Of a stretch of 64,000 nt of DNA, positions 21,086-36,305 are shown in pieces. Within the stretch, counting starts at the first letter, position 1. Each line of letters starts with the position of its first letter. Position numbers and translations under genes: made by a program. Origin of the DNA: Methanobacteriota archaeon (GTDB lineage Archaea > Thermoplasmatota > Poseidoniia > Poseidoniales > Thalassarchaeaceae); contig JAERSV010000004.1 of NCBI GenBank assembly GCA_016845345.1, positions 82,814 to 146,813 of the forward strand. Direction: 5' to 3'. The notes beneath the pieces are model-generated. The model saw only the letters and a program-made list of their open reading frames with translations, was not told the DNA's origin and did not search any database.

Positions 21086-21238
21086 CTAAAACCGCTGTGA
21101 CTATTGTCCCCATTGAAGCATTCGCCTCTCTGTTGCCTTCTGTCGCGGGTATTTGTTATGGAAATACCTACTTTTTGTCGCGTTTTAAATGATGCGGGAA
21201 CGCCATAAGCCCTTTTTATGATTGCAGGTCGGGATAAC

Positions 21239-24200
21239 ATGGTAGAAAGGGACTTAGTGAATATAAGATTCCGTGCAATCATGATTTCACTAACCATGAT
21301 TGTAGTTTTGTTCAGCCCATTTGCATCTGCCTTTGACACAGATGGGGACGGTGTTGATGATAGTACAGATGACTGCCCCATAGCGTATGGAACTAGCAGT
21401 GTTGACAGGGATGGATGTCCGGATAGTGATGGCGATGGAACAAGTGACTTAAATGACCCTTGGGTGATTCAAGCTGGTGGTTTTCTAGAGGATAACCGGC
21501 AATCTATGAGTGATAATCAATATGTTTCAGTATTCAACTTTGATGGAAGTAAATACCTGACAACAGAGGATACTGGTGGATGGGGTAATTCAAATGGCTG
21601 GTTAAGAATCTGGGACACTGCAAGTAAAACGAATGTAAAATCAGTTGAATTTAGTGGAAATTTCGTTCATGATGCCGATTGGTCAGATGATGGCATGTTT
21701 GTTGGCGCAGTAACTGACAACGATGAGTTACTTGTTTACTACTCTAGTAACGTCACGCCTCTATTTTCAGTGAGTACTGATGTAGGTAGCGGTGACCAAC
21801 CTAACGCACTGGCTTTCAGCCCCGACGGAACAATGATTGCCGTTGTTGTTGGTCGGTCAGGTAATGGAGGAACCAATGGCGAAGTACAAATTTACAATGC
21901 GATGAATGGCTCAGAAATTACCGCATTTGACCCCGGTTCTGATAGTCGGTTCAATTCTGTTGATTGGAGTCCTGATGGAAGTAGAATCCTAATTGGTGGA
22001 AATGAGGATGTTTATATTTACAATACAGGAAGTTGGAACGTCAACCGGACAATCAATACCAATAGAGGTGCAAACAATGCTGTGGCTTGGTCGCCAGATG
22101 GAAACACTATCACTACTTGTGAAGCATATGAAAATTCAGGTGCAAGAGTAAGGCTATACGATGTGGCAAGTGGATTACAAAATTGGAAATATGATACTTC
22201 TACCTCATGTAATGATGTTGCATATTCGCCGGATGGCACTCAAGTTGTTGCAGCACACACATATTATCAATCAGACGGAGCTAGTTTGAGAGTATTCAAA
22301 GTAAATGCGAATTCCCCGACTATTGTTGACACTATGTCTGCACCTCGTCCGGGTGGTTGCACCGCAAGTGGAGGAGGGAATAACTGTGGCACAATTTACG
22401 GAGTCAGTTGGCATCCTGATGGAGATTATGTTATCTCAGCACATGGACGAAATGACGAAGGAATTTACCATTGGGTAGTTGACCCTGATATTGATAATGA
22501 TGGTGTGCTAAACGTTGATGATGCGTTCCCTGAAGACCCGACACAATGGGATGATTCTGACAACGATGGATATGGCGATAACCCTGCACCTGCAAATGAG
22601 CCTGACGAATGTCCGAATGTTGCCGGGACTTCTACTGAAGATAGATTCGGTTGCCCTGATGGGGATGGTGATGGTTGGTCTGACCTAAATGATGCATATC
22701 CAAACGATGAATATCAATGGGCTGACGCTGATGGTGATGGACACCCCGACAATGTCGAGGATACTCGAGACCCGAACCCACACGGTACAGTAGACCGGTT
22801 ACCAAACAATCCAACTCAGTGGGATGACACTGACCTCGATGGTTATGGGGATAATTTCGCTAACGCATCTTGGGTTGGAATTAGGCCTTCTGAGTGGCCA
22901 GGAATTCTAATTACTACAATGACGCCGAGCCAATTGAATGACATTGACGTGTTTCCTACAGATACAGAACAGTGGAATGACAGTGACGGCGATTGGGTCG
23001 GGGACGAGCAATTTACAAGCCGTTCTGATGGATGTATCCATATATACGGCGATTCTATTTGGGATAGGCTCGCATGTTACGACACTGATGGAGATGGATG
23101 GTCCGACCCCGATGATAATTGGCCTGCTTGCAGAGAAGGCGCTGGAACTGGTGATGCTTTCATCGACGACCCAAGCCAATGGTGTGATGCTGATGGCGAT
23201 GGATTTGGAGATAACGCAAGCGGGACTAACGGCGATTCGTGTCCTGGATTTAATGGAAATTCATCAATTGACCGCACCGGTTGCAAAGACTCTGATGGAG
23301 ATGGATATTCCGATGCTGGTGACCCATTCCCGGGAGATGCCACTCAATGGTTAGACCGTGATGGAGATGGTTGTGGTGATAACAGCCATGGCAATAATCC
23401 AGACCTTTTCCCTGATGACCCATCCCAGTGTGGTGACCGTGATGGAGATGGATATGGTGATTACCCTGTTGGAGACAATGGTGACTGGTTCCCTGATGAG
23501 AACACCCAGTGGTATGACTTTGATGGCGATGGCTACGGTGATAATTTTGGCAATGCTTCATGGGTATTTGACCGCAATCAATCTTGGCCTGGCATATATG
23601 TAGAAAATGCGCATGAACCCGATTTGTGTCCAACAAAATATGGGCAGATGGAAGGCGAAACAACTCGTGGTTGTCCCGATACAGACCAAGATGGAATCGC
23701 CGATAATGAAGACGCTTATCCTGAAGACCCAATGCGTTCATCGGACCGTGATGGAGATGGCTATGCTGATGACCCTCTAGCAGCACAAAAAGATGATTGC
23801 CCGGACACATTTGGAACTAGTTTCAAAGGAAATACTTACGGCTGTATTGACTCTGATGGCGATGGTTGGGCTGACACTCGAGATGATTTCCCTGATATCG
23901 CCAGCCAATGGAAAGATACCGACGATGATGGGTATGGAGATAATTGGGGTAATTCGAGTTGGAATATCAGTCGAGAATTGAATTGGCCTGGTGATTTCAT
24001 TGTTGGGGCTGAACTTGCGGATGCGTTCCCTAACGATATTACTCAGTGGAATGATACCGATGGCGATGGTTGGGGTGACAATCCGAATGGTACCAACCCT
24101 GATGATTTCCCGCTCATTCATTCACAGCACAAAGACAGTGACAAAGATGGGTATGGAGATAATACTACTCGCGACGCATTCCAACCAGATGATTGCAGAT

Positions 24201-24703
24201 CAAAATTTGGAACATCATGGCAAGACCGATTTGGATGTGAAGACACAGATGGTGATGGTTGGTCAGATATCGCTGACATTTGCATCTATGACCCTAATGT
24301 ATGGGAAGTTCCCGGGGTTTGTGAAATTACAGAGGCTGAAACTGGAGTTACAAGTTCAAACAAAATGTCAATTATAGAATTGGGCACATATTTACTAGGT
24401 GGTTTGGGGGTACTACTCCTCTTAGCCATCCTAGTTGCTATGATTGCCCGCCAAGCCGCAAAACGCAGTGGCCAATTGATGCGCCAAAATGTTGCCTTAC
24501 AAGAGCAAATATTTGACGAAGAAGAAACCCGACGTGAAGAATGGATTGAATACTATGTGGGTCAGGGAGATCTAGAGAAAGCCAAAGAACTCGGATGGGT
24601 GGAAAAGGCTGATTGGCAACTTCATCAAGAGGCTGAGGAACAGCAGGCTGAAGAAGCGATCGAGGCATTGCCTGAAGCATTAGACCTTGATGACTTGCTT
24701 TGA
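21239..24703 (+). CDS. Large secreted, membrane-anchored protein: beta-propeller (WD40-like) region plus many thrombospondin type 3-like Ca-binding repeats
   Basis: N-terminal signal-like segment; YSPDGT/WSPDGN/SPDG propeller blades; >10 DxDGDGYGDN/DSDGDGWSD repeats with paired Cys; TM MSIIELGTYLLGGLGVLLLLAILVAMIA; cytosolic tail. Confidence 0.85.
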   Translation: MVERDLVNIRFRAIMISLTMIVVLFSPFASAFDTDGDGVDDSTDDCPIAYGTSSVDRDGCPDSDGDGTSDLNDPWVIQAGGFLEDNRQSMSDNQYVSVFNFDGSKYLTTEDTGGWGNSNGWLRIWDTASKTNVKSVEFSGNFVHDADWSDDGMFVGAVTDNDELLVYYSSNVTPLFSVSTDVGSGDQPNALAFSPDGTMIAVVVGRSGNGGTNGEVQIYNAMNGSEITAFDPGSDSRFNSVDWSPDGSRILIGGNEDVYIYNTGSWNVNRTINTNRGANNAVAWSPDGNTITTCEAYENSGARVRLYDVASGLQNWKYDTSTSCNDVAYSPDGTQVVAAHTYYQSDGASLRVFKVNANSPTIVDTMSAPRPGGCTASGGGNNCGTIYGVSWHPDGDYVISAHGRNDEGIYHWVVDPDIDNDGVLNVDDAFPEDPTQWDDSDNDGYGDNPAPANEPDECPNVAGTSTEDRFGCPDGDGDGWSDLNDAYPNDEYQWADADGDGHPDNVEDTRDPNPHGTVDRLPNNPTQWDDTDLDGYGDNFANASWVGIRPSEWPGILITTMTPSQLNDIDVFPTDTEQWNDSDGDWVGDEQFTSRSDGCIHIYGDSIWDRLACYDTDGDGWSDPDDNWPACREGAGTGDAFIDDPSQWCDADGDGFGDNASGTNGDSCPGFNGNSSIDRTGCKDSDGDGYSDAGDPFPGDATQWLDRDGDGCGDNSHGNNPDLFPDDPSQCGDRDGDGYGDYPVGDNGDWFPDENTQWYDFDGDGYGDNFGNASWVFDRNQSWPGIYVENAHEPDLCPTKYGQMEGETTRGCPDTDQDGIADNEDAYPEDPMRSSDRDGDGYADDPLAAQKDDCPDTFGTSFKGNTYGCIDSDGDGWADTRDDFPDIASQWKDTDDDGYGDNWGNSSWNISRELNWPGDFIVGAELADAFPNDITQWNDTDGDGWGDNPNGTNPDDFPLIHSQHKDSDKDGYGDNTTRDAFQPDDCRSKFGTSWQDRFGCEDTDGDGWSDIADICIYDPNVWEVPGVCEITEAETGVTSSNKMSIIELGTYLLGGLGVLLLLAILVAMIARQAAKRSGQLMRQNVALQEQIFDEEETRREEWIEYYVGQGDLEKAKELGWVEKADWQLHQEAEEQQAEEAIEALPEALDLDDLL

Positions 24704-26008: not shown

Positions 26009-26713
26009 TTAAGAAAATGGGTCATACTTGTCTTCTTTTGAAAACTTCTCAACAATATTTTTGCTAGTTGCATCAGGATTTGAATCTAGATAAAGAAGGA
26101 TTTGTGATGCCAAATCCTCACCCGCTTTTATTGCGGTTTCATCCGCTTCTAGACCGAAACTAGATTGTAATTCATTATAGGTTGTATCCAACATTTCTTC
26201 TACTGATAATTGTCCATCTTTGTTTTTATCCATAATCAGCATTGAGGCAATCGCTAATACCTTATCTTGGTTGTTTTCTTCATCCGATAGGATATCAGTA
26301 ATCAGAGATTGTAGTTTTTGTTCTTCTTCATCTTTATCTAGAGCAGATAATTTCTGAATCATCTTCTTCTGTACAGCAAAATCCCGCTTGGTTTTCGCCT
26401 TGGTTTTTCGGTATACTAACGAGCCTGATTTATCATGCACAAGAACCGTATTTCCCATTAATGCATCTAATAGTCCTTTCAATATTACCAATGATAGAAT
26501 TGCCCCAAACCCACAATAGGGGTTCACAAAAAGGTATCCAGTTGCTGAAACAGCAAGAACTAAGGCAAGCCAAATTAATGAATATATTATATTAAAAAAG
26601 AAAGATTTAGGCTTGTCTCCACGTTTAAATGCGATATTGGGATATCTAATTTTAGCATGGCGAAGCAAGTCTTCATCGCCCATGCTTTCGGCCGGTGTTA
26701 AATTCACTTTCAA
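26009..26713 (-). CDS. Membrane protein with C-terminal cytosolic EF-hand
   Basis: TM segments IIYSLIWLALVLAVSATGYLFV and GFGAILSLVILKGLL; EF-hand loop DKNKDGQLSVEEM. Confidence 0.72.
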   Translation of the reverse strand: MKVNLTPAESMGDEDLLRHAKIRYPNIAFKRGDKPKSFFFNIIYSLIWLALVLAVSATGYLFVNPYCGFGAILSLVILKGLLDALMGNTVLVHDKSGSLVYRKTKAKTKRDFAVQKKMIQKLSALDKDEEEQKLQSLITDILSDEENNQDKVLAIASMLIMDKNKDGQLSVEEMLDTTYNELQSSFGLEADETAIKAGEDLASQILLYLDSNPDATSKNIVEKFSKEDKYDPFS

Positions 26714-35411: not shown

Positions 35412-36305
35412 TCACAGTGCTTCTGCAAAGTCATTGGAAAGTGCTTCAAAGCGTCCTGCTAATTCCTTGCAAGCCTGCTCTAAGCAAGTTCGGGCTGTCA
35501 TTGAACCATCGGTTTCAAATTGGAAAATAAATTCTCCTTCAACATCTTCCAAAGTGATTGCATCATTGAATTGTGCTTCTAAATCAGTTCCACTACCAAC
35601 ATGGTTGAGGTCATTTCGCAGTAAATCTACCTTATCGATATCATTGAGAGTACCATCTTTGTTGAAATCCTTAGCAGTGATATTCAAATTTAGGTCAAAT
35701 AACATCTTTGAGCGGGTTTTTACATTGATTTTACCGTTCTGACGCGCATAGAATGTCACCCCAGAGACTGGTGAATACTTTGCATGGTCTCTACCTCTAC
35801 CCATTATTGCGTAAAAGTACGCATGAAGGACTTGCCCTTCGAATAGTTTTGTTAGTGGGATGGAACCATACGCTTCTGGAATTTCTAATCGGCGGTCTCC
35901 AATTACATTCATCTCAGATGCAACAACACTTCTACCACCTTCTTCACCACTTGATGAAATTGTGTAGATTATTTGACATGATGGGCATCCACGTTGGTCT
36001 ACTACCATATCTTTGCAATCAGGACATTCATCTTGAAAGTAAAAATCATCGTGGAACGTTGGGATTGGAAGCATTGAAAATCTGTGAGCGAGTTGTTCGT
36101 CGCTTAAGGCATAGTTTGACTCGAATAATTCACCTGTCTCTTCATTTTTGAAAACACCGAGTTCAACTCTCATTTGGTCAATCGCGAATTTTGGCACATC
36201 AGAAATCATGGTTCTGCGTAGGGAATTTACGAATGCTCGGTTAACTCCTGAAAAGAGTATACGTAGTGAAGTATCGGTTTCTGAAAGAATTTTTAATTTT
36301 GTCAT
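35412..36305 (-). CDS. rpo3: DNA-directed RNA polymerase subunit D (Rpo3)
   Basis: FVNSLRRTMISDVPKFAIDQMRVE; ALSDEQLAHRFSMLPI; CPDCKDMVVDQRGCPSC; HAKYSPVSGVTFY. Located in the S13-S4-S11-Rpo3 block. Confidence 0.94.
   Translation of the reverse strand: MTKLKILSETDTSLRILFSGVNRAFVNSLRRTMISDVPKFAIDQMRVELGVFKNEETGELFESNYALSDEQLAHRFSMLPIPTFHDDFYFQDECPDCKDMVVDQRGCPSCQIIYTISSSGEEGGRSVVASEMNVIGDRRLEIPEAYGSIPLTKLFEGQVLHAYFYAIMGRGRDHAKYSPVSGVTFYARQNGKINVKTRSKMLFDLNLNITAKDFNKDGTLNDIDKVDLLRNDLNHVGSGTDLEAQFNDAITLEDVEGEFIFQFETDGSMTARTCLEQACKELAGRFEALSNDFAEAL

Follow-up and report, generated by a model that had tools for sequence, protein, structure and literature searches.

Domain 3 of archaeal Rpo3 (RNA polymerase subunit D) is known in more than one state. 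In Sulfolobus and Methanosarcina, Rpo3 carries one or two [4Fe-4S] clusters, and in Methanosarcina domain 3 and its clusters are dispensable, although they favour assembly with the large subunits (PMC5300874). Domain 3 retained without Fe-S motifs has been tabulated for Thermoplasmatales, Halobacteriales, Thermococcales and others (PMC5300874, Table 1). The Rpo3 considered here is encoded in a window of 64,000 nucleotides, the whole stretch of DNA that was analysed, from a member of the Poseidoniales near Thalassarchaeaceae. With the cysteine-free versions (T. kodakarensis, PDB 4qiw/4qjv; Thermoplasmatales, Halobacteriales), it shares the subunit, the domain order and a domain 3 devoid of Fe-S ligands, but it differs from them by a longer zinc-type loop in domain 2 (C-x9-C) and by a domain 3 that measures about 80 residues and contains an EF-hand-like turn. 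Compared to the Sulfolobus and Methanosarcina proteins, the position of domain 3 and the order of its elements are homologous, whereas the window Rpo3 lacks any Cys ligand. The EF-hand-like turn is a 12-mer for which a preliminary description had proposed Ca or Mg binding. We consider it highly probable that this 12-mer is the turn of an ordinary ferredoxin-like domain 3 whose [4Fe-4S] ligands were lost class-wide.

Features of the Rpo3 gene and its surroundings (positions within the window; residues of Rpo3)
Feature	Position	Strand	Basis or remark
rpo3	35412..36305	-	297 aa; downstream of rps13-rps4-rps11-like genes; NF001988, PF01193, PF01000
Putative domain-2 zinc-type site C-x2-C-x9-C-x2-C (residues 94-110)	35976..36026	-	sequence and alignment
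Domain 3, ferredoxin-like insert without cysteine (about residues 186-262)	35520..35750	-	hhalign E=5.6e-9; AF2 pLDDT 90
12-mer DFNKDGTLNDID (residues 213-224)	35634..35669	-	predicted to run from the last part of a short turn through a loop and a two-residue strand into a helix
Predicted helix 223-233 after the loop, N-capped by Asp222 (loop position 10)	35607..35639	-	model DSSP; Asp10 in 60/60
Cysteine-free domain-2 rows			L029, L030, L064, L216 and L048, L052, L054, L061, L062
TSP3-repeat protein gene	21218-24703	+	1161 aa
EF-hand-like membrane protein gene	26009-26713	-	234 aa

The open reading frame is an archaeal Rpo3. It has the interrupted Rpb3/Rpb11-type dimerisation domain, scores 176.4 bits against the NCBIfam model for RNA polymerase subunit D (NF001988; E=8.4e-52), above the cut-off of 153, and is matched in Pfam by RNA_pol_L (PF01193) and RNA_pol_A_bac (PF01000). 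Its best sequence match in the PDB is the Thermococcus kodakarensis Rpo3 (E=4.9e-20), and a whole-protein Foldseek search with the predicted model returned Rpo3, Rpb3 and AC40 chains as best matches. The closest named record, from a Thalassarchaeaceae MAG, is 95% identical, and Rpo3 is present in 59 of the 59 nearest genomes and in 231 of the 244 genomes of the order. The presence of rps13, rps4 and rps11 upstream of rpo3 is the usual archaeal order, and the same-strand open reading frames upstream are presumably these genes, as we read them from their sequence and general knowledge. Among the relatives, one single-contig genome has an in-frame TAG in rpo3, the stop lying within the match (L057, G036:C1:132948-133832), which may reflect either an error or a genuine interruption of the gene. 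Another bears two differing rpo3 copies on separate contigs (L018 and L067, G016:C21:1613-2488 and G016:C11:6076-6804), probably reflecting mixed strains in the bin.

Regarding the cysteines, the preliminary description was accurate: the Rpb3-like CPDC...CPSC pair is found in domain 2, and downstream of it residues 181-267 contain no Cys and hence none of the CxxCxxC...CP-type [4Fe-4S] motifs. Several other families of Thermoplasmatota have 7-9 Cys in domain 3, against zero, or a single isolated Cys at most, in the window's order and in the second family of the class. Using hhalign, the Poseidoniales domain 3 aligns end-to-end with that of other Thermoplasmatota over 76 columns (E=5.6e-9, a value that includes the conserved flanks of domain 3 and is not an E-value for the loop alone). 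Judged by this alignment, the Poseidoniales domain belongs by homology to the ferredoxin-like domain 3 of Rpo3, and the Fe-S ligands have been lost from it across the whole class, in agreement with the earlier proposal that this lineage remodelled its Fe-S domain. Since a Cys-less domain 3 is already tabulated in other archaea, the loss in Poseidoniales is not unique. Within the alignment, KDFNK-DG--TLNDIDKVDLL is paired with KVFEVEKGKVIIKNLENCDLC, and the counterpart of the 12-mer itself is VFEVEKGKVIIKNLENCDLC, a segment that comprises, in the [4Fe-4S] domain 3, the beta2-turn-beta3 hairpin plus the first part of helix 2.

The 12-mer is located in minus-strand Rpo3, within domain 3, as first reported. 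Like EF-hands and dockerins, it has the spacing D1-N3-D5-G6-L8-D12 over 12 residues with a helix after it; like the Dx[DN]xDG calcium loops, it fits the linear motif (DFNKDG), with a hydrophobic residue at position 8 and an acidic one at position 12. It is also compatible with the dockerin-like pattern D-x-[DN]-x-DG-x-[LIVM]-[ND]-x-x-D. The match claimed with the EF-hand consensus holds for the ligand pattern but not for the full PROSITE pattern (PS00018), which fails because position 13, where a hydrophobic residue is required, is a Lys; moreover, position 12 is Asp instead of the Glu usual in canonical EF-hands (PMC3123361). None of the 106 Rpo3 homologs matches PS00018. Among 263 predicted proteins of the same genome (104,094 aa, from 340 kb), the ligand pattern occurs 11 times versus 0.85 expected in shuffles, the remaining occurrences being mostly in Asp-rich repeat proteins; the match is thus uncommon, yet a few per proteome are expected.

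An AlphaFold2 model of Rpo3 (44 homologs, pLDDT 90.4) was used to examine the surroundings of the 12-mer, and a model of domain 3 only agrees with it in this region. DSSP assigns a helix at residues 196-204, coil at 205-210, a three-residue turn at 211-213, a loop at 214-218, a strand (EE) at 219-220 and a helix at 223-233. The helix-loop-helix that had been envisaged is therefore not predicted, as only coil and one short turn precede the loop and the entering E helix of an EF-hand, usually part of a pair, is absent from the models. There is a likeness to the exit half of an EF-hand or dockerin loop, in that a two-residue strand occupies loop positions 7-8 and a helix begins near position 11. 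A fold search with domain 3 only yielded nothing of significance (best E=2.1), and no EF-hand or dockerin is described among the 31 matches listed.

Which residues are conserved was assessed by aligning the loop of the 106 Rpo3 homologs, 93 of which bear Asp1; among these 93 loops, the length is the full 12 residues in 60, one residue less in 31 and greater in 2. The pattern recurs in many relatives, which makes a one-genome accident untenable, but it is not the ligand positions that are conserved. Indeed, the full ligand set is retained in only 41 of the 93 Asp1-bearing loops, and at least 12 changes in the fit to the full-ligand pattern are counted on the gene tree. Entropies among the 60 full-length loops are 1.37, 1.28 and 1.71 bits at positions 3, 5 and 12, so that variation affects three of the four positions that would supply side-chain ligands, while the invariant Phe2 and Asp10 (0 bits; Asp10 in all 60) and the near-invariant Val14 (0.12 bits) are not side-chain ligands. 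Lys13 is present in 56 of these 60 loops. The 31 shorter loops retain Gly6 (27/31), Leu8 (29/31), Asp10 (30/31) and, for the most part, Asp5 (18/31), with an acidic residue at position 12 in 18/31, which argues that something other than an intact EF-hand loop conserves these residues. Loops of the genus include DFDKEGRLTDID, DFGKDGKMTDID and, in the relative whose Rpo3 is 95% identical, DFNKEGILNDID; 8 of the 9 genus members are acceptable at positions 1, 3, 5, 6, 8 and 12 when Glu is permitted at position 5. The loop of the sister family, KLFGKDKKMTDI, is without Asp1, and that of the class's other family is FKKKGNKHVIDNP.

These data are best accounted for by a short connector that is equivalent to the beta2-turn-beta3 hairpin together with the helix 2 N-cap. 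Following the ferredoxin fold, from which we assign the hairpin and cap roles, Phe2 and Leu8 would contribute to the core, Lys-Asp-Gly would form the turn and Asp10 would cap the helix. Position 3 (Asp or Asn) and position 12 (Asp) would drift as polar sites, completing D-x-N-x-D-G in some species; the calcium-loop appearance thus most likely arose by drift in a domain 3 turn. Domain 3 would still be a structural element, probably helping the Rpo3/Rpo11 pair to join the large subunits, as suggested by its role in Methanosarcina (PMC5300874), with presumably no metal at the loop.

The best surviving alternative, itself improbable, is a genuine Dx[DN]xDG site for Ca (or Mg) that converged locally in the domain 3 turn, stabilises the cluster-less domain and was repeatedly lost in relatives. 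Calcium binding by such loops is known from at least 16 structural contexts, strand-loop-helix ones among them, and the motif seems to have arisen convergently inside existing loops, although intracellular examples other than EF-hands and calcium blades are uncommon (PMC3123361). In a bound loop of this type, the side chains at positions 1, 3 and 5 and the backbone at position 7 hold the calcium. The motif is matched by 37 of the 106 homologs, of which 34 also have an acidic residue at position 12, position 1 being an invariant Asp in the family and position 3 mostly Asp or Asn. However, the strict pattern is already broken in the 95%-identical relative (DFNKEG) and in 4 of the 9 genus members, variation is higher at ligand than at non-ligand positions, and residues 5, 6, 8 and 10 survive in the shortened loops. 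Unlike described Dx[DN]xDG loops, the putative one in Rpo3 has unconserved ligand positions and a variable length. The narrower version, in which the genus and a few related genera swapped the Fe-S cluster of domain 3 for a convergent Ca/Mg site of this type, is in our judgement decidedly improbable; if true, Dx[DN]xDG would gain a new structural context and an RNA polymerase would have an element that responds to metal, and if the loop bound calcium, the transcription machinery would contain one of the rare intracellular Dx[DN]xDG sites. The EF-hand-like Ca/Mg binding put forward initially is disfavoured by the unconserved ligand positions, the 31 shortened loops and the predicted lack of an entering helix, and the loop in the window's Rpo3 is unlikely to bind a metal.

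A pure coincidence in a single genome, involving residues without structural role, finds some support in the about 0.85 such patterns expected by chance per 104,000 aa, but Asp1, Phe2, Gly6, Leu8 and Asp10 are conserved across the family, which points to a constrained loop even if it is no metal site; with much of the segment conserved, we rejected this very unlikely reading. Finally, a true EF-hand or dockerin-type module, acquired by or evolved in Rpo3 in place of the ferredoxin-like domain, is scarcely credible and was rejected too: the dockerin-like pattern and the helix after the loop fit, but the domain aligns end-to-end with ferredoxin-like domain 3, Pfam EF-hand and dockerin models give no match at E<1, a PDB profile search retrieved no EF-hand and only a chance ferritin match, Lys occupies position 13, and the loop is single, with neither the paired second repeat nor the entering helix of such modules.

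The gene neighbourhood had also been taken as a possible sign of a calcium-adapted lineage. The two calcium-type proteins are real: a protein, either secreted or located in the membrane, that combines a WD40-type beta-propeller at the N-terminus with many TSP3-like DxDxDG repeats, and a membrane protein whose DKNKDGQLSVEEM matches PS00018, with sub-threshold Pfam EF-hand matches, which by its sequence looks a better EF-hand candidate than Rpo3. Their genes lie about 9-14 kb from rpo3, with a leucyl-tRNA-synthetase-like gene and others intervening, and nothing ties them to rpo3. This context is weak, and we rejected it as support for a calcium site in Rpo3. A literature search combining Poseidoniales with RNA polymerase and calcium returned nothing relevant, as judged by title or abstract.

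Other parts of Rpo3 also vary within these archaea. The domain-2 site, at which we assume zinc binding from what is known of the Rpb3 family, exists in two forms crossing family boundaries: 97 Rpo3 rows have CPxC...GCPxC, and 9 rows, from both Poseidoniales families, have the cysteine-free form DDPxNxxLPxxxWGxPxSQIIYHC. The cysteine-free loops share 65% identity between families but no more than 22-24% with the cysteine form found in the same family, unlike the rest of the protein, which follows the families. This pattern suggests loss with regain, or segment exchange. In addition, some Rpo3 have an extra Cys-containing insertion past about residue 51 in domain 1 (L011:1261-2217, from the window's own genus, L031:1492-2478 and L064:101-1084), e.g., CPECKKMTPDKRPCEKC or CLSCGHLNPAA...GTGCNQC, which resembles a patchy zinc ribbon.

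The patchy domain-2 zinc site of Rpo3 may be a more interesting lead than the EF-hand-like loop. As for the loop, what looks like a new metal site in a conserved subunit can be no more than a match to a short motif, and it is the aligned family that points to an inherited turn. With its domain 3 devoid of Fe-S ligands throughout, the class of marine group II archaea joins the lineages whose Rpo3 lost the Fe-S cluster.
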